From positions 1 through 34,032 of the forward strand of contig DAOWHH010000008.1 in the NCBI GenBank assembly GCA_030641525.1: a stretch of 34,032 nt of DNA, read 5' to 3'. Both the position numbers and the translations under genes were made by a program. Source of the DNA: a bacterium (GTDB lineage: Bacteria > Patescibacteriota > Minisyncoccia > Phycocordibacterales > UBA12079). Under the pieces are notes generated by a model. It saw nothing but the letters and a program-made list of their open reading frames with translations, did no database searches and had not been told where the DNA came from. This document shows positions 3,051 through 31,905 of the stretch, piece after piece (the stretch's first letter is position 1; the number at the start of each line of letters is the position of its first letter).

Positions 3051-4316
3051 ATGCTAAAGAAATTAAAAAAGAACATTCCTAATATAATTTTAGTAAGTGT
3101 TTCCACAATAATATTATTGTCTATATTTGTTGTTTCTATTTTTGATAATAAAAATATTATACCTTTAGCGGAAGCTGGTGATGATCAAAATTTATCAGGT
3201 TATGCATGGAGTGATAATATTGGTTGGATTAGTTTTAATTCTAATAATGGTGATGATTCAGGAAATATAGATTATGGTGTAAATATTGATAATTATGGTT
3301 TATTTTCAGGTTATGCATGGAGTGATAATATTGGTTGGATTAGTTTTGAATCAAGTGATTTGAGTGGTTGTCCTGGAATAGATTGTAGGGCTTGGAGAGA
3401 TGGGAATAATATATTAGGTTGGGCAAAAGCTTTAAGTGCTGATGGTAATGGTTGGGATGGTTGGATAAGTTTAAACACCCTTAGTGATGGTATTAATAAT
3501 GTACCTTACGGATGGTATGTTGATGATGGAGTATTGAAAGGAGATGCTTGGGGTTCTGATGTGATTGGCTGGGTTCGTCTTGATCATCCTTTTGCTTCGG
3601 GTGGTGATGAGGTGGTATTAGAAGAGGATCCTACTGAAATACCAGCAATTAATAGTTTTGTTGTTAATTCTGCTCCAAACGGAAGTACACCGAGGATTTT
3701 ATGGACAACAACAAATATGGATGTTTGTACACTTAATGAAGTAGGAGAATTAAGTAGGGAGATTTGTGATAATATTGGAGATTGTTCTAGTGGTACCACT
3801 CAGGGTTATACAATAACAACAACACCAGCAGAATATACTTTAGGTTGTGAAGGAAGTTACGGTGGAAATTCATACACACCTGTAATAGAACCTACAACTC
3901 AGCCTGAAGACCCTTATGTCAGATTAGCATTTGTTGATGGTTTTAGTGAAAATCTTACCGTAAAATTTGTTGTGGCAGCAGCAACTACCTCCGCAACTAG
4001 GATTAATGTAATACCGTATAATAGTTTTTCAGGTGATGTGACAGTTAAAGCTAGAGTTCAAGATATAAATAAATTACCAAATGGATCTTGTGCTATTTAT
4101 TATCCAGAAAATTTGGATTTAGATGGTCCTTGTTCTAGTTCATTTGAAATTGAAAATGTATCTGTACCAAAAGCCTTTAATTTCAAAATCTTTTTGGCTA
4201 GTGACGAAATTACAGGGACACAGACTATAGAGATAGGAGGTGGGCAAGATGCCTTAGCTCCTTTAGAGGTTAAAGTGGGTGCAGAAAGTATAGTTCCAAT
4301 TTTTGAAGAGATTTAA
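3051..4316 (+). CDS. Secreted/cell-surface protein with GYAWSDNIGWISF repeats
   Basis: 421 aa; N-terminal hydrophobic signal; SGYAWSDNIGWISF occurs twice, with degenerate GDAWGSDVIGWVRL. Confidence 0.85.
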   Translation: MLKKLKKNIPNIILVSVSTIILLSIFVVSIFDNKNIIPLAEAGDDQNLSGYAWSDNIGWISFNSNNGDDSGNIDYGVNIDNYGLFSGYAWSDNIGWISFESSDLSGCPGIDCRAWRDGNNILGWAKALSADGNGWDGWISLNTLSDGINNVPYGWYVDDGVLKGDAWGSDVIGWVRLDHPFASGGDEVVLEEDPTEIPAINSFVVNSAPNGSTPRILWTTTNMDVCTLNEVGELSREICDNIGDCSSGTTQGYTITTTPAEYTLGCEGSYGGNSYTPVIEPTTQPEDPYVRLAFVDGFSENLTVKFVVAAATTSATRINVIPYNSFSGDVTVKARVQDINKLPNGSCAIYYPENLDLDGPCSSSFEIENVSVPKAFNFKIFLASDEITGTQTIEIGGGQDALAPLEVKVGAESIVPIFEEI

Positions 4317-4324
4317 AGAATTAT

Positions 4325-4412
4325 ATGAAGCAAGCATATAATTCCATCGCTCGGACATAGTAAAAATAAATATTACCATAATCATTTTTACTAGTCCTCA
4401 CTTGAAATTATG
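4325..4412 (+). repeat. ~88-bp hairpin-forming repeat, copy A, ending at the ATG of the next ORF
   Basis: Reverse complement matches 23456-23543 with about two differences; internal stem tagtaaaaat/atttttacta; contains TATAAT. Confidence 0.85.
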
Positions 4413-4862: not shown

Positions 4863-7800
4863 ATGGAAATTTCAAAAAACAATAATATTTGTCGCATCGT
4901 GGGAATGATTTCGTTATTTTTAACGATGTCGTTTGTGTCTAATATAGCACTAGCATGGACAGGCCCGACAGAAGGACCTACTGGTGGTAATACAGATGCA
5001 CCTTTAAATGTGAGTAGTACAAATCAGATAAAAACAGGAGATTTAACCTTAGGTAATTTGACTTTTCCGAAATGGACTGATTCTGATAATAGTGATTATA
5101 ATATTGATCCGTTTGGGAATTCAGTATTTGCTCGTGTATATTCACTACTTGATATATATACTCCCAAGTTTTTTGATCAGGATGATCCGAATAATTATTA
5201 TATAGATCCAAATCAGAATTCTGTTTTAAATACCATAGAAATATCTTCTCTTAAATTAGGAAGTGAAGAATCTTTAACTGCATGGCCTGAAGCAATAGCT
5301 CCTATTTGGACAAAGAATGACTCTGACACTTATTATACTACTGGAAATGTAGGAATAGGAACAGATGACCCATTAGTATCTTTGGATGTTGTTGGTAATA
5401 TTCAAGCTAGTGGAAATATCACATCTGGTGGTGAAAATGTTTGTCTAGAAGATGGAACTAATTGTGCAATTGCTACACCAGGTAAATGGGGAGACGGAAT
5501 AGGAACTGGAGATATTTATTATACTACCGGAATTGAAGTTGGAGATATAGGAATAGGAACAGACGACCCAACTGTAAAATTAGATGTTATAGGAGATATT
5601 AAATCTAGCGGAGATATTTGTAGTGGCGATGGATGTATTGGAGATTATATAGCAGGGTCTTCTATTTGGAATGAAAATGCTTCTGATATTTATTATAATG
5701 CTGGAAATATTGGAATAGGAACAGCTAATCCAAGTGAAGAATTAGAAGTTGTAGGAGATATTTTGGCCAATACAGGAAATTCCGTATTTGCTAATCTTTA
5801 TGCCAACCTCTTTAGACTTACAAATGATAGTATTTATGAAACTCTTGTGATTAAAGATGAAATTGGTGACACAACTCCATTTGTAATTGATGCAGAAGGA
5901 AATGTAGGAATAGGAAAAACTAATCCAATTAAAAAATTAGATGTTGTAGGAGACATTCAAGCCAGTGGAACTATTTGTGATAGTGATGGTAAATGTATTG
6001 GAGATATTCCAGCTGCTGATGAAGTGGGTAAGTGGAGTGATGGAACAACAATTGGAGAAATTTATTATACAGATGGTAATGTTGGAATTGGAGTGATTGA
6101 TCCAACCGAAGAATTAGATGTTGTTGGTAATATTCAAGCTAGTGGAAATATCACATCTGGTGGAGACTTACAAATAGGGGTAGGTGGATATATTGATGAC
6201 GATGACATTCAAGCAGGAACTTCTGATGATTGGATTCACTTAAATGGTTATCTTGAAATGAGATCTAATTCAGATAATCATGGAATTGTATTAAGAGATA
6301 AAGATGAGAGTAATTATCTTAGCATTACTCAAAAAAATGGATATTCATATTTTTCGGATTCTAATGTTTCAGGAAGTTATTTCCTAAGAGGAGGTGGAGC
6401 CAGTGCTACAATTAGAGGAGATTTATATGTAGCTGGTAGTGATGTATATGATGGATCTGGACCTCTTCGCTTAAGTGGTGAAGATAATGTACAGATTACT
6501 ATGGATTATTTGAGTAATGATACTGATTCAGCTATTATATTTGGTAAAGATAGTATAACTGCACCTACAGAATTAATGAGAATAACTGAAGACGGAAGGC
6601 TTGGAATTGGGACAAATAATCCAGCTTCAACACTTTCTGTATTAGGAAGTCTTACTGTTTTAAGACCTGAATCTACTACTTATTCACCTGGTAATGAAAT
6701 CTCTTTACAATCTTGGAGTACGAATACTAGTACTGAAAATGATGGTTGGATATCGGGATCGGCTACAGATACATGTAATGGAAATATAAGTGATTCCTAT
6801 ATATGTGCTGGTGGAGAAGGAGGTAAATTATGTGTAGATACCAAGTTGGTGGAAGGTGTTGAATATCAACATACAAATGTGACATGTGTGGCTGGTACAG
6901 AAACATATTCGTTGAGAACAGATGATGGTGTTTTGCAATTTTTAAATAATTTAAGTAACGAAAAATTTACTATAGATCAAGAAGGTAATGTAATAATTAA
7001 CGGAACTATTACATCTGGTGGTGAAAATGTTTGTCTTGAAGATGGAACTAATTGTCCAGCTGACAGTGATACAGGTAAATGGAGCGATGGAACGACAGAA
7101 GGTATTGTTTATGCTGATAATGTAGGTATAGGAGTAGCTAATCCAACCGTAGCTTTGGATGTTGTGGGAGATGTTAAAGTTAGCGGTGGTTCACTTCATC
7201 TTAATAAAGATGATTCAATATTCCTTGAAAATGATAAACATGCTATTACATATAATGATGGAAAAGGAAACTTTAATATTAGAGTAGGACATTCTCCTAG
7301 TGAAGTTGTCACTGAAGCAGGATATCCTTCTCATATGGAATGGAGTCAATCAAGTGGGTTGTGGCAAGTTAATTTACCTAGTAATTCTTTGAATGTAGGA
7401 GATTCTATAACTTGGGATAGAGTTCTACAATTTAATAAAGACGGAACACTTTCTATTAGTGGAGATTTAGATGTAAAAGGTAGTGATGTATATGATGGAT
7501 CTGGACCTCTTCGCTTAAGTGGTGAAGATAATGTACAGATTACTATGGATTATTCGAGTAATGATACTGATTCAGCTATTATATTTGGTAAAGATAGTAT
7601 AACTGCACCTACAGAATTAATGAGAATAACTGAAGACGGAAGGCTTGGAATTGGGACAAATAATCCAACAGTAGCTTTGGATGTTATGGGTGATATCAAT
7701 GCTAGTGGAGGTATCATATCTGGTGGTCAAAATGTTTGTCTAGAAGATGGAACTAATTGTGCAATTGCTGCACCAGGTAAATGGAGTGATGGAGCGACAG

Positions 7801-9947
7801 AAGGTATTGTTTATGATGGAAATGTTGGAATTGGAGTAGTTAATCCAACTAAACCTTTAGAAGTTGATGGGGATATTTTGGCCAATACAGGAAATTCCAT
7901 ATTTGCTAATCTTTATGCTAGTTTATTAAGACTTACAAACAGTAGTGCTAATAATACTTTAGAAATTCATGATGATGGAACATATACAGATACAACTCCA
8001 TTTGTAATTGATGCAGAAGGAAATGTAGGAATAGGAACAAACAGACCTGCTTCAACATTAGATGTATTGGGAAGTGTTAGGTCTGGAAATATAAAAACTC
8101 AAGATATAGATGTAAATTACTTAACTGTGAGTACTCAAAGTGATGATGTAGGTGTTCTAAATTTGAATAATAGTGCCAAAGCTAATTTTAGACCGAGTGA
8201 TATAGGTATTAGTGAGTGGACTGAATGGAAATTTGATTCAACACATACAACTGATACATGTGATGGTAATAATACTAATAAAATTATTTGTACAGATTAT
8301 AATACAGTTAATAATTGTGTTGATGTTGCTTTAGTAGAAGTGAGTGGTGAGTCTGCTGGATCTGCTTGGAGAGAAATTACTTGTAGACCAACTGCAGGAA
8401 TTTATGCAATTCAAAACATAGACAATAACCTTAATTTTGTAAATGGTGACGGAGATTCAAAAATGATAATTGATCAAGAAGGAAATATAGTTGTTGAAGG
8501 AGCCATTACATCTGGTGGTGAAAATATTTGTCTTGAAGATGGAACTAATTGTATGGCAAGTAAATGGGGTGAGGGAATAGCGTCTAGGGATGTTGTTTAT
8601 GAAGGTGGAAATGTAGGAATAGGAACAGATAACCCAACTAAAGCTAAATTGGTAATAAATAATGATACAGAGCCTTTTGACGAAGAATTTTTAGATCTTT
8701 CTTCAACAGGACATTCGGTATTCAATAATCTTTATGCAACCCTTCTTACACTTACAAATACAGGAGATAGGGATATCCTTTTGATTAAAGATGAATTGGT
8801 AGGGGAAGAAGATCCAACACCATTTGTAATTGATGCAGATGGTAAGGTGGGAATTGGAGTAGCTGATCCTGCTTCAACATTAGATGTATTAGGTTCTATT
8901 AGGTCTGGGGATGTTAATACTCAAAATGCAGATATAAATTATTTGACAGTAAGTACACAAGGAGAATCTGTAGGTGTTCTAAATTTGAATAATAGTGCCA
9001 AAGCTAATTTTAGGCCGAGTGGGGTAGGTGACAGCGTAATAGGTGCTTGGGATTTTGATTCAGAGCAAGGAGATACTTGTGAAGGTGAAGATAATGTTAA
9101 TGCAATTATATGTACAGGATATAATACAGTTAATGGTGGAGATAATGATACATTTTGTTATGATCGTGGAAATGTAATAGTTGGAGGATCTCCTGCAGGA
9201 CTTGCTACTCGAGAAATTAATTGTAGACCAAATGCAGGAAATTACGCAATCCAGAACATTGGAAATAAACTTAATTTTGTAAACGGTAGTGAAGATTCTA
9301 AAATGACAATTACTCAAGATGGTCGTGTCGGAATTGGGACGGATAGTCCAAGAGGGAATGCTGGAGATTTAACTTTGGGAAATGCCGATGGAACTCGAGG
9401 GGATCTTTATCTATATGATTCACTTGCAGGAAAATATTCTGCAATGAGAACCCTTAATGGTAATTTTCATATAGATTCAGATGACACCGGGATTTATCCT
9501 ATATTTTTGAATTGGTTTAAAGGAACGGGTGGGGTTGTATTTGGAAATGGAAATCAAGGATTGGCTGGGAAGATATCTGCTGGTGGAGATTTAACAATAA
9601 GTAATTTAAAGAATTGTGCATCTGTCTATACTGATGGTAATGGAAAATTCATATGTGAGGGTAAATTGAGTTGTCCTTATGTTGATGAAGTATACGGAGC
9701 TAGCTATTGTCCAGAAGGTCCTTGTTCTGGTTTGGATTGTGGTTATGTTGAAAGTACTTATTTTCAACAATACAAAAGAACAACGACTTGTACGAATCTA
9801 AATACTGGGGAGAAGCTACTCCCTCCTACAATTAGCTATCATACTGTAAATACAGGAATAAGTTGTTTAGTTCATTGTGGTTTTTGTGGTTTTGGTTCTG
9901 ACTGTAAATCTAACAGGTGTGTATTAGATGATCCACCAGATAATTAG
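4863..9947 (+). CDS. Giant repetitive secreted/surface protein (NVGIGTxNPxxxLDVxGxI repeats, Cys-rich C-terminus)
   Basis: 1694 aa; signal-like N-terminus (IVGMISLFLTMSFVSNIALAWTGP), many fibre-like GIGTxNP repeats, last ~110 aa with 12 Cys. Confidence 0.9.
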   Translation: MEISKNNNICRIVGMISLFLTMSFVSNIALAWTGPTEGPTGGNTDAPLNVSSTNQIKTGDLTLGNLTFPKWTDSDNSDYNIDPFGNSVFARVYSLLDIYTPKFFDQDDPNNYYIDPNQNSVLNTIEISSLKLGSEESLTAWPEAIAPIWTKNDSDTYYTTGNVGIGTDDPLVSLDVVGNIQASGNITSGGENVCLEDGTNCAIATPGKWGDGIGTGDIYYTTGIEVGDIGIGTDDPTVKLDVIGDIKSSGDICSGDGCIGDYIAGSSIWNENASDIYYNAGNIGIGTANPSEELEVVGDILANTGNSVFANLYANLFRLTNDSIYETLVIKDEIGDTTPFVIDAEGNVGIGKTNPIKKLDVVGDIQASGTICDSDGKCIGDIPAADEVGKWSDGTTIGEIYYTDGNVGIGVIDPTEELDVVGNIQASGNITSGGDLQIGVGGYIDDDDIQAGTSDDWIHLNGYLEMRSNSDNHGIVLRDKDESNYLSITQKNGYSYFSDSNVSGSYFLRGGGASATIRGDLYVAGSDVYDGSGPLRLSGEDNVQITMDYLSNDTDSAIIFGKDSITAPTELMRITEDGRLGIGTNNPASTLSVLGSLTVLRPESTTYSPGNEISLQSWSTNTSTENDGWISGSATDTCNGNISDSYICAGGEGGKLCVDTKLVEGVEYQHTNVTCVAGTETYSLRTDDGVLQFLNNLSNEKFTIDQEGNVIINGTITSGGENVCLEDGTNCPADSDTGKWSDGTTEGIVYADNVGIGVANPTVALDVVGDVKVSGGSLHLNKDDSIFLENDKHAITYNDGKGNFNIRVGHSPSEVVTEAGYPSHMEWSQSSGLWQVNLPSNSLNVGDSITWDRVLQFNKDGTLSISGDLDVKGSDVYDGSGPLRLSGEDNVQITMDYSSNDTDSAIIFGKDSITAPTELMRITEDGRLGIGTNNPTVALDVMGDINASGGIISGGQNVCLEDGTNCAIAAPGKWSDGATEGIVYDGNVGIGVVNPTKPLEVDGDILANTGNSIFANLYASLLRLTNSSANNTLEIHDDGTYTDTTPFVIDAEGNVGIGTNRPASTLDVLGSVRSGNIKTQDIDVNYLTVSTQSDDVGVLNLNNSAKANFRPSDIGISEWTEWKFDSTHTTDTCDGNNTNKIICTDYNTVNNCVDVALVEVSGESAGSAWREITCRPTAGIYAIQNIDNNLNFVNGDGDSKMIIDQEGNIVVEGAITSGGENICLEDGTNCMASKWGEGIASRDVVYEGGNVGIGTDNPTKAKLVINNDTEPFDEEFLDLSSTGHSVFNNLYATLLTLTNTGDRDILLIKDELVGEEDPTPFVIDADGKVGIGVADPASTLDVLGSIRSGDVNTQNADINYLTVSTQGESVGVLNLNNSAKANFRPSGVGDSVIGAWDFDSEQGDTCEGEDNVNAIICTGYNTVNGGDNDTFCYDRGNVIVGGSPAGLATREINCRPNAGNYAIQNIGNKLNFVNGSEDSKMTITQDGRVGIGTDSPRGNAGDLTLGNADGTRGDLYLYDSLAGKYSAMRTLNGNFHIDSDDTGIYPIFLNWFKGTGGVVFGNGNQGLAGKISAGGDLTISNLKNCASVYTDGNGKFICEGKLSCPYVDEVYGASYCPEGPCSGLDCGYVESTYFQQYKRTTTCTNLNTGEKLLPPTISYHTVNTGISCLVHCGFCGFGSDCKSNRCVLDDPPDN

Positions 9948-10075: not shown

Positions 10076-10104
10076 ATTTACCAGCTATCGGATAGCTGGT
10101 AAAT
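10076..10104. repeat. Short copy of the ccagctatcsgatagctgg palindrome family
   Basis: atttaccagctatc-g-gatagctggtaaat, perfect 14-bp arms. Confidence 0.85.
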
Positions 10105-10130: not shown

Positions 10131-10159
10131 TTGGAATGAAAAATCTTTTATTGTATAAT
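10131..10159 (+). promoter_or_regulatory. Sigma70-like promoter: TTGGAA - 17 nt - TATAAT
   Basis: -35 at 10131-10136, -10 at 10154-10159; an in-frame ATG at 10170 lies where transcription would begin. Confidence 0.6.
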
Positions 10160-11975
10160 GGTAATTGAAATGCTTTTAGATAATAAAAAAGTAGAAGATT
10201 TGCTTTTAGAATTAGGCTTGATTAAGCAAGAAGATTTTGATTTGGCACGACAAGAAATAAGAGAGAATAATAATCTCTGTGATATTTTAATAAGAAAAGG
10301 AAAACTAAATAAAGATGAATTAAGAGATATTCAAATGAAAATAACAGGTATAGATTTTGTTGATTTGAAGAATCAAAAGATTGATGAAAAGATTTTATCT
10401 ATTATTCCAGAACCAATTGCTCGGAAATACAATATAATTGCCTTTGATAGAGATGCTAAAACATTAAAAATAGCTGTTTTAGATATATCTGTTTTAGATG
10501 AAATAGATTTTTTAAAGAAAAATATATCTTTAAGAATAATTCCTTATTTAACCAATGAAGCTTCTATTAATAATAATCTTTTGCGTTATCAAGAATTATT
10601 AAAAAAAGATTATGGATCTGTAATTCAGAAAGAATTTTTATCTTTTCAGACTATTTCAGAAGATTCTATAAAGGATTTCTCAAACGAGAAATTATTAGAA
10701 TTAGCTAGAGATAAGAGAATAAATTTTGTTTTTGATTTATTTATACAATACGCTCTTTCTCAAAATGCTTCTAATATTCATATTGAACCACAAAGAGATA
10801 ATGTTTTGATTAGATATAGGATTGGAGGAGTTTTATATCCAGCTATGTTTTTACCAAAAAACGCTATGTTTATTTTAGCTTTAAAGATAAAAGCATTAGC
10901 AGGTTTATCCGTACAAATGGGTATGAATAAAACCAGCTATCCGATAGCCAGTGACTATCGGATAGCTGGTTTTAATAAAAACCATTGTTTTCAAATGGGT
11001 TTTGATGGTAGAAATGTTGATTTCCAAGTACATATAATTCATACTTTATGGGGAGAAAAAATAGTTTTAAATCTTTTGAGAGATGGGGACTCAGGTTTTT
11101 CTTTAGATTCTTTAGGCTTTCACGGAAAGGCTTTAGATGTTTTATATACAGAGTTAAATAAAAGAAACAAAATGATCTTGATTGCTGGTGATGAAGGTTC
11201 CGGTAAAACTACTTCTTTTTATACTTTTTTGGATTTATTAAAATATTCTAATTTAAATATTACAACCATAGAAAATTCAATTGGTTTTCAGATGTCAGGT
11301 ATAAATCAAATGGTGACTAATTCTGATATATCATTTAATATAGCTAATGGAGTTAAAAAATTAGAAAAACAGGATGTAGATATTATTGGTGTTGATGAAA
11401 TAGAAGATTTTAAAACAATCAAGTCGTTATTTAATGGTACTTATGAAGATAAATTCACTTTAGCTGTTTTAGAAACTAAAGAAAATTCAGGAGCTAAAAT
11501 AATTTCGAAATTATTGAGTGTGGAATTAAGTCCAGCAGCCATAACATCTGGTTTAGGAGTTATTCTTTTGCAAAAAATGTTTCCTAAATTAGATAAAGAA
11601 AATAGTAATGAGTATTATTTGAACGTTTCCGAAATCACAAAATTATCTAAATCTAAAAAAATTGATTTAGAAAAAATAATGGATGCTTTGGTTCAAGAAA
11701 ATATTTTAGAGAAAAAGATTCCTTGGTCACAAGTAAAATTTTATAAATCAGATAAAAATAAAAAAGATTCTTCAGAAAATAATAAAAAAATTATGATAAG
11801 CGAGGTTCTTAAAATAAGTCCAATAGTCAAAGAAATGATTTTAAATAATAAAAATTCTGAGGATATTGAAAAACAGGCATTGAAAGAAGGGATGTTTTCT
11901 TTAGAAGAAGAACTTATTTTTAAAGCTGTGCAAGGTCTCATTAATATAGACTTAATACTTATATATGAAATTTAA
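10158..11975 (+). CDS. Divergent type IV pilus/type II secretion ATPase (PilB/GspE-like); true start probably 10170
   Basis: T2SSE N-terminal-like domain, NIHIEPQRDNVLIRYRIGGVL, Walker A AGDEGSGKTTSFYTFLDLL, Walker B-like VDIIGVDEIED. Confidence 0.85.
   Translation: MVIEMLLDNKKVEDLLLELGLIKQEDFDLARQEIRENNNLCDILIRKGKLNKDELRDIQMKITGIDFVDLKNQKIDEKILSIIPEPIARKYNIIAFDRDAKTLKIAVLDISVLDEIDFLKKNISLRIIPYLTNEASINNNLLRYQELLKKDYGSVIQKEFLSFQTISEDSIKDFSNEKLLELARDKRINFVFDLFIQYALSQNASNIHIEPQRDNVLIRYRIGGVLYPAMFLPKNAMFILALKIKALAGLSVQMGMNKTSYPIASDYRIAGFNKNHCFQMGFDGRNVDFQVHIIHTLWGEKIVLNLLRDGDSGFSLDSLGFHGKALDVLYTELNKRNKMILIAGDEGSGKTTSFYTFLDLLKYSNLNITTIENSIGFQMSGINQMVTNSDISFNIANGVKKLEKQDVDIIGVDEIEDFKTIKSLFNGTYEDKFTLAVLETKENSGAKIISKLLSVELSPAAITSGLGVILLQKMFPKLDKENSNEYYLNVSEITKLSKSKKIDLEKIMDALVQENILEKKIPWSQVKFYKSDKNKKDSSENNKKIMISEVLKISPIVKEMILNNKNSEDIEKQALKEGMFSLEEELIFKAVQGLINIDLILIYEI
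10928..10974. repeat. Long copy of the ccagctatccgatag palindrome, inside the PilB-like CDS
   Basis: taaaaccagctatccgatag-ccagtga-ctatcggatagctggtttta: perfect 20-bp arms, 7-nt loop. Confidence 0.95.
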
Positions 11976-12733: not shown

Positions 12734-12777
12734 AAACCAGCTATCCGATAGCCAGTGGCTATCGGATAGCTGATTTT
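12734..12777. repeat. Third copy of the ccagctatccgatag palindrome, filling the tpiA-pgk spacer
   Basis: aaaccagctatccgatag-ccagtgg-ctatcggatagctgatttt, one arm mismatch, followed by a T run. Confidence 0.9.
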
Positions 12778-22515: not shown

Positions 22516-22520
22516 CTAAA

Positions 22521-22582
22521 ACATTTCATGAAAGACTATTTTCTGAATTTTAAAATTCAGAAAATAGTCTTTCATGAAATGT
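22521..22582. repeat. Perfect 62-bp palindrome (31-bp arms, no spacer)
   Basis: acatttcatgaaagactattttctgaatttt|aaaattcagaaaatagtctttcatgaaatgt. Confidence 0.97.
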
Positions 22583-22590
22583 TCGGGCGA

Positions 22591-22650
22591 ACATCTTTTA
22601 TTCTATAATTTTTAAGATTTTAATCTTAAAAATTATAGAATAAAAGATGT
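22591..22650. repeat. 60-bp palindrome (29-bp arms, 2-nt centre)
   Basis: acatcttttattctataatttttaagatt-tt-aatcttaaaaattatagaataaaagatgt. Confidence 0.97.
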
Positions 22651-22712
22651 TTTAGCCATAAAACCGTTATTAACGATTCGGGCTAGCCACAAAACATTCT
22701 AATGCTTTAGGC
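22651..22712. repeat. Two further, weaker hairpin modules of the same series
   Basis: GCCataaAACCGTTattAACGATTcGGGC and GCCacAAAACATTctAATGCTTTaGGC. Confidence 0.55.
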
Positions 22713-23005: not shown

Positions 23006-23458
23006 CTATCTATATCTATCTTTCATTTCTCTATCTATATCTCTTTGTATATCTTTCTTTTTTATAGTTTCTCTCTTATCGTATTTTTTCTTTCCTTTCA
23101 CAACGGCTATTTCTAACTTGATTTTATTCCCCTTATTATACATTGAAACTGGGATAATTGTCAATCCCTTTTGAGCTTCTAAATTAGCTAGATGTGAAAT
23201 CTGTTTTTTACTTAATAAAAGGATTCTATTTCGCTTTGAGTCATAATCTAAAGGGGTGTTTTTGGGTTGGTAGGGTGGAATATTGGAATTAAATAATATA
23301 GCTTCATCTCCTCTAATACTGATATGAGAACCTTCAAGAGACCCTTTCTTTCCTTTAATAGATTTCACCTCAAAACCAAGCAATTTTATTCCTGCTTCTA
23401 ATTTCTCTAAAATCTCATATTTTAGTCCTATTTTTTTGTTCTTTATGAATATTGTCAT
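23006..23458 (-). CDS. smpB: SsrA-binding protein SmpB
   Basis: NKKIGLKYEILEKLEAGIKLLGFEVKSIKGKKGSLEGSHISI...DKRETIKKKDIQRDIDREMKDR. Confidence 0.97.
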   Translation of the reverse strand: MTIFIKNKKIGLKYEILEKLEAGIKLLGFEVKSIKGKKGSLEGSHISIRGDEAILFNSNIPPYQPKNTPLDYDSKRNRILLLSKKQISHLANLEAQKGLTIIPVSMYNKGNKIKLEIAVVKGKKKYDKRETIKKKDIQRDIDREMKDRYR

Positions 23459-23543
23459 AATTTCGAGTGAGGATTAGTAAAAATGATTATGGTAATATTT
23501 ATTTTTACTATGTCCGAGCGATGGAATTATATGCTTGCTTCAT
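23456..23543 (-). repeat. ~88-bp hairpin repeat, copy B, abutting the smpB start codon
   Basis: cataatttcgagtgaggattagtaaaaatgattatggtaatatttatttttactatgtccgagcgatggaattatatgcttgcttcat. Confidence 0.9.
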
Positions 23544-23545
23544 CT

Positions 23546-23632
23546 AATTTCGAGTGAGGATTAATAAAAATAATTATGTAATATTTATTTTTATTATGTC
23601 CGAACTATGTAATTATATGCTCGCTTCATATA
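23546..23632 (-). repeat. ~87-bp hairpin repeat, copy C, tandem with copy B
   Basis: aatttcgagtgaggattaataaaaataattatgtaatatttatttttattatgtccgaactatgtaattatatgctcgcttcata. Confidence 0.9.
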
Positions 23633-23672
23633 GTTATTAAAATATTAGCATATTTTCTGTTGTGAATGTATA

Positions 23673-31869: not shown

Positions 31870-31905
31870 ATCTCCGGAGGTCCAACCTCCGGAGGTTTGT
31901 TTTTG
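31870..31905. terminator. Bidirectional terminator-like hairpin
   Basis: tctccggaggt-ccaa-cctccggaggtttgttttt. Confidence 0.7.

Follow-up and report, generated by a model that had tools for sequence, protein, structure and literature searches.

A dispersed palindrome lies in frame within a PilB-like ATPase gene of a Patescibacteria genome and resembles REP elements linked to Y1 transposases

The stretch of DNA analyzed here, termed the window, comprises the 34,032 nucleotides of contig DAOWHH010000008.1 (assembly GCA_030641525.1). The nearest named relatives of its host are MAGs of the Candidatus Paceibacterota / Patescibacteria group, which bears out the view, put forward in an earlier note on this DNA, that the lineage is unrelated to Rickettsia. 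On the forward strand, positions 10158-11975 form an uninterrupted open reading frame (ORF) for a protein of 605 amino acids, assigned as a PilB/GspE-like ATPase from the Pfam domains T2SSE and MshEN and from solved PilB structures; it scored 222 bits against TIGR02538 (type IV-A pilus ATPase PilB), under the equivalog cut-off of 675.65 bits. Genes for triosephosphate isomerase and phosphoglycerate kinase lie downstream.

As described in the earlier note, a perfect palindrome is located within this coding sequence and leaves the ORF intact. It occupies positions 10928-10974, with two 20-bp arms (10928-10947 and 10955-10974) that are perfectly complementary around a 7-nt loop, and is an inverted doublet of a dispersed repeat, designated family A. 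As RNA, the palindrome folds with -37.1 kcal/mol (z = -8.7), an energy reached by none of 200 shuffled sequences, and a short T run is found 3' of the hairpin in the PilB-like mRNA. A search of Rfam gave no family at the gathering score at this position. In the inserted orientation, the doublet has only one stop-free frame, which is the frame used by the PilB-like gene.

The same note had claimed that 48 nt can be removed with the frame kept, so that 16 residues look inserted. These residues, TSYPIASDYRIAGFNK (codons 259-274, positions 10932-10979 of the forward strand), were looked for in an alignment with 29 PilB-like homologs, namely three congeners, one protein from a sister genus and 25 more distant ones, and the proposed gap was present in all of them (residues found in 0/29). 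The ends of the insert are uncertain by a few bases and cannot be fixed to the nucleotide because homologs in the genus and family are only 57–59% identical. Counted on the alignment, the loop between the conserved flanks has 28 residues in the window protein, 9 in the three congeners and 13 in the 25 distant homologs; without the 16 residues, the loop of the window protein would have 12. Further, the sister-genus homolog (L032) carries a longer loop of unrelated sequence at the same place, and the site therefore tolerates length change. Judged from this alignment, TSYPIASDYRIAGFNK appears to be an insertion gained in this lineage. At the same loop, an LPQDGR motif is kept in the 25 distant homologs and lost in the window protein and its congeners (L033-L035), and the function of this PilB-like lineage may have shifted.

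The heptamer AATAAAA, previously interpreted as a 7-bp target duplication, is indeed present on both sides of the palindrome, at 10926-10932, where it overlaps an arm, and at 10974-10980 (both on the forward strand), but neither as a pair nor singly is it significant. When random placements in this A+T-rich genome were given the same freedom in placing the ends, direct repeats of at least 7 bp arose in approximately 6% of all placements and in 8% of those between AAAA and TTTT. No direct repeat of constant length was found around the other copies of family A or of the sister families B and D described below. The target duplication was rejected on both grounds. Y1 transposases of the IS200/IS605 type recognize hairpins of single-stranded DNA and do not duplicate the target, and the missing duplication is thus as expected for this type of enzyme.

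A genome-wide search for the palindrome, which the earlier note had called for, found 19 sites of family A on nine contigs of the 585-kb genome, with one clear coding copy, while the reversed control motif gave no match. The family sequence is GCTATCSGATAGC, with CCAGCTATCGGATAGCTGG as its single-hairpin form, and within the window the core motif was matched 10 times vs. 0.38 expected. The two further copies that had been reported nearby are both intergenic: a single palindrome at 10076-10104, upstream of the PilB-like gene, and an inverted doublet at 12734-12777, terminator-like and directly 3' of the triosephosphate isomerase stop codon. Copies occur as single hairpins or as inverted doublets with a short spacer; there are eight such doublets, whose central bases are inverted between the halves, and stems are retained through paired changes (e.g., CCTATAGC/GCTATAGG). 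With two exceptions, the PilB copy and one near a doubtful ORF start, the copies are intergenic. They mostly lie between genes in tandem or convergent arrangement, often shortly past a stop codon, and are flanked by runs of A and T. This is the placement of REPs and terminators and, with one clear coding copy of 19, family A is not mainly coding. The copy near the doubtful start, in a 3371-aa ORF (C9:12434), was discarded as a coding case: it is placed between long inverted flanks, about 90 nt past the earliest start that the ORF could use, and is probably intergenic. Long perfect palindromic flanks, different for each intergenic copy, were observed at C10:31362-31412, C9:6951-7027, C2:40982-41048 and C3:57360-57431, and are not explained by simple insertion.

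The exact motif of family A was not matched in any of 296 further genomes of the order, nor was the doublet pattern in the genome_contigs and viral_contigs collections; one palindrome with a single mismatch was detected in the relative G008. A role as DNA uptake sequence was dismissed, as 19 sites in 585 kb are far too few.

Two sister families of palindromes are present in the same genome. Family B (CTCCGGAGGTYSAACCTCCGGAG) has about 20 sites and was absent from the 30 relatives in which it was looked for; one of its palindromes is intergenic in the window (31872-31894). Elsewhere in the genome, family B palindromes flank a Y1 transposase gene (C9:28435-29103) upstream and downstream and also occur within it, the internal one being in frame. 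Similarly, palindromes of family D (ACTTGGACCTYSRAGGTCCAAGT) lie on both sides of a second Y1 gene (C2:73885-74535). In the sister families, Y1 genes and palindromes match family by family. A GTAG tag marks the foot of the stem in family D (CTAC...GTAG) and in several families of relatives, and is absent from family A units. The best NCBIfam match of the Y1 proteins was the REP-associated tyrosine transposase, with scores (50.7, 25.8 and 21.9 bits) under the 80-bit cut-off of the RAYT equivalog NF047646. Y1 genes were found in 14 of the 21 genomes near this one and this Y1 clade in 70 of 118 in the order; at many Y1 loci of relatives, the gene is likewise placed between two copies of its own palindrome. 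Neither this assembly, which is an estimated 87% complete, nor, by exact motif, the order yielded a Y1 gene accompanied by family A palindromes. A possible third Y1 gene on C6 was set aside as the family A enzyme, since its matches correspond to a family D remnant and to a contig end overlapping the end of C2.

Palindromes, many of them tied to their own transposase gene, repeatedly occur inside protein genes of the related genomes, transposase genes included, and coding copies are more frequent in the other families of this genome and its relatives than in family A. In this genome, a family B palindrome is in frame in mnmA (C9:29196-30278), which adjoins the Y1 gene of that family, and family D palindromes are in frame in an enolase gene and a holB-like gene. 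Among relatives, in-frame palindromes were observed in ligA-, fpg-, truB- and rnhB-like genes and a methyltransferase gene of G007, and in tsaD-like and glycosyltransferase genes of G003 (MnmA was named by Pfam, the others by sequence reading and pairwise matches). Relative to homologs, the extra length in these genes either falls short of the palindrome or is not clean, which leaves the PilB-like gene as the clearest case of insertion. A D-like sequence of 20 nt, one arm of which is broken, is read in genes as LSAPRSK. It has five exact occurrences: two in a tsaD-like gene (C2:28939 and C2:29734), where it replaces residues with no net length gain over homologs, two in the family D Y1 gene (C2:74077 and C2:74344) and one in a transposase remnant (C6:19941). 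The truB-like genes of G007 (C1:685213-685968) and G003 (C2:5433-6170) have palindromes at roughly the same loop that differ between the two relatives. A GC-rich family, CCTGCCTGCCGGCAGGCAGG, has 13 copies on C1 of G007, and LPAGKAG, a peptide that it could encode, appears in the tsaD-like protein of G003 (C10:75072-76313).

Unexpectedly, the Y1 genes themselves carry such copies. In 14 of 20 genes (L108, L109, L111-L115, L122, L124-L128 and L131), a near copy of the terminal palindrome belonging to that gene lies in frame and scored better than every mismatched palindrome. Twenty-nine loci of other families in the order made up a second set, in which the ORF was recognized for 19 and paired palindromes for 10; among the genes with matching palindromes on both sides, nine of ten (L202, L204, L208, L211, L214-L217 and L224) contained their own palindrome in frame. 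Overall, 23 of 30 Y1 genes with a defined palindrome do so, a frequency that is uncertain because the script recognized the ORF, and then the paired palindromes, in only these fractions of the 29 loci. The internal copies are mostly located in two variable loops, near residues 52–72, preceding the strand that leads to the HUH motif, and near residues 146–167, with a few near the C-terminus (e.g., L108 and L128). An internal copy may reflect either repeated reinsertion near the source gene or the upkeep of a functional site. It is conceivable, and we put it forward tentatively, that the Paceibacterota Y1 genes form a self-referring system, in which a gene's own palindrome brackets it and recurs in frame within either of two loops, the internal copy changing along with the ends despite wide divergence between families; the palindrome would then serve as mobile end, coding segment and possibly regulatory hairpin, and ordinary genes, the PilB-like one among them, would be seeded by versions compatible with coding.

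Inverted doublets, restriction to one lineage, the missing duplication and the linked transposases of the sister families all fit a REP-like element moved by a Y1 enzyme. We therefore regard it as likely that the palindrome in the PilB-like gene is a non-autonomous REP/REPIN-like element inserted in frame into a tolerant loop of the ATPase, and its mover was probably a Y1 transposase. Such an enzyme, of the HUH tyrosine type, would have mobilized family A by recognizing hairpins in single-stranded DNA; two hairpin units of roughly 19 nt, joined as an inverted doublet (~41 nt), would have entered the loop and would now be read as about 16 extra residues, presumably of little consequence for the ATPase. 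That the PilB copy is in frame is explained by selection against stop codons and frameshifts, and the intergenic copies may also act as transcription terminators. The family A transposase might be encoded in the unassembled part of the genome or have been lost, or an enzyme of family B or D might act in trans. Against this explanation stand the failure to find a family A Y1 gene, the missing GTAG tag, the copy-specific palindromic flanks and the smaller gains in other genes. Several of these points would suit a spread without any transposase, in which template switching or gene conversion would copy or correct terminator-like hairpins and would have left the PilB copy as a by-product: no family A transposase was found, the perfect flanks on C10, C9 and C3 extend beyond the family core and are specific to each copy, and the D-like sequence in tsaD swaps residues rather than adding them. 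We consider this route unlikely, as the sister families adjoin Y1 genes matched family by family and a gain of 48 nt in a conserved gene, of a sequence that relatives do not have, is easier by insertion.

A classical MITE, or a Rickettsia-type palindromic element (RPE) with a 7-bp target duplication, would account for AATAAAA on both sides and for an insertion in frame, as is described for RPEs (PMC3733652). This is improbable given that repeats of this length are matched by chance placements, that the other copies lack a repeat of constant length and that no CGTC tag is found at the ends. Still less credence is given to a resident regulatory hairpin native to the PilB-like gene (an attenuator, internal terminator or translational pause): the great stability of the structure in the mRNA and the short T run after it are what such a hairpin would show, but it is absent from all homologs, its sequence is that of a dispersed family and no Rfam family was recovered there.

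With regard to known systems, the REP-like element proposed here is closest to REP/REPIN sequences and their Y1 transposases (RAYT/TIRYT) and not to the RPEs to which the earlier note had likened it, although the in-frame inserted repeat on which that comparison was based is real. In common with REPs, REPINs and RAYTs (REPtrons), there are short palindromes as single units or inverted doublets, in many copies and in a narrow lineage, mostly intergenic and downstream of genes, and the sister families flank a Y1 gene; family A, with its 19 sites, has the form of a repeated, mostly extragenic palindrome of 20–40 bp and forms inverted doublets. It differs in its low copy number (19), the missing GTAG tag and the transposase that was not found; the Y1 transposases differ from RAYTs in scoring under the equivalog cut-off and in their Paceibacterota hosts. 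TIRtrons, with their TIRYT transposases (PMC3733652), share a Y1 gene between its own palindromes, which are also dispersed; this arrangement was seen for B, D and the families of G003 and G007, and none was found for A. Most Y1 genes here differ by also carrying an in-frame palindrome within the coding sequence, whereas the available part of that source mentions, for TIRtrons, only repeats overlapping the gene ends.

RPEs are alike in that palindromes in frame in housekeeping genes are read as extra residues; RPE-1 is reported in truB of R. conorii (PMC3733652), and truB-like genes of the relatives here also contain palindromes. RPEs are reported to bear a CGTC tag at one end (PMC3733652), while the ends of family A copies have no CGTC; the lineage is unrelated, the sister families have linked Y1 transposases, and family A is nearly all intergenic, with 1 clear coding copy of 19 where RPE families have many. 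Copies here also lack the constant-length flanking direct repeats of MITEs. Since family A works like an RPE but lacks the RPE tag, and resembles REPs and TIRtrons but no transposase of its own was found, we assign it to neither family. Perfect palindromes within reading frames are also described from mitochondrial genes of Nematomorpha (PMC6649704), where they are far longer (up to 284 bp); its abstract does not mention a dispersed family linked to a transposase.

Earlier descriptions exist of REPs located within genes, of RPEs in frame and of TIRtrons whose ends are self-complementary (PMC3733652), and the literature searched, which covered few subscription papers, contained no description of a counterpart in Patescibacteria. 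REP-like mobile palindromes with matching Y1 transposases are now placed in these streamlined bacteria and, being in frame in protein genes, therefore supply minimal genomes with new peptide segments. Further, in Y1 genes that contain their own palindromes, the joint evolution of element ends and coding sequence can be put to the test, and such genes may help to explain the origin and change of REP families.

The window contains other repeats. Two neighboring long A+T-rich palindromes (22520-22583 and 22590-22651) have arms of ~30 bp that are 100% complementary; one has a 2-nt loop and the other none. Positions 4311-4412 and 23456-23643, separated by about 19 kb, carry inverted repeats (94 nt at 97% and 66 nt at 88%). 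Lastly, positions 4863-9947 encode a repetitive protein of 1694 amino acids with phage tail-fibre matches (phrog_9942, E 8e-40) and many repeats of the GNVGIGT...LDVVG type.
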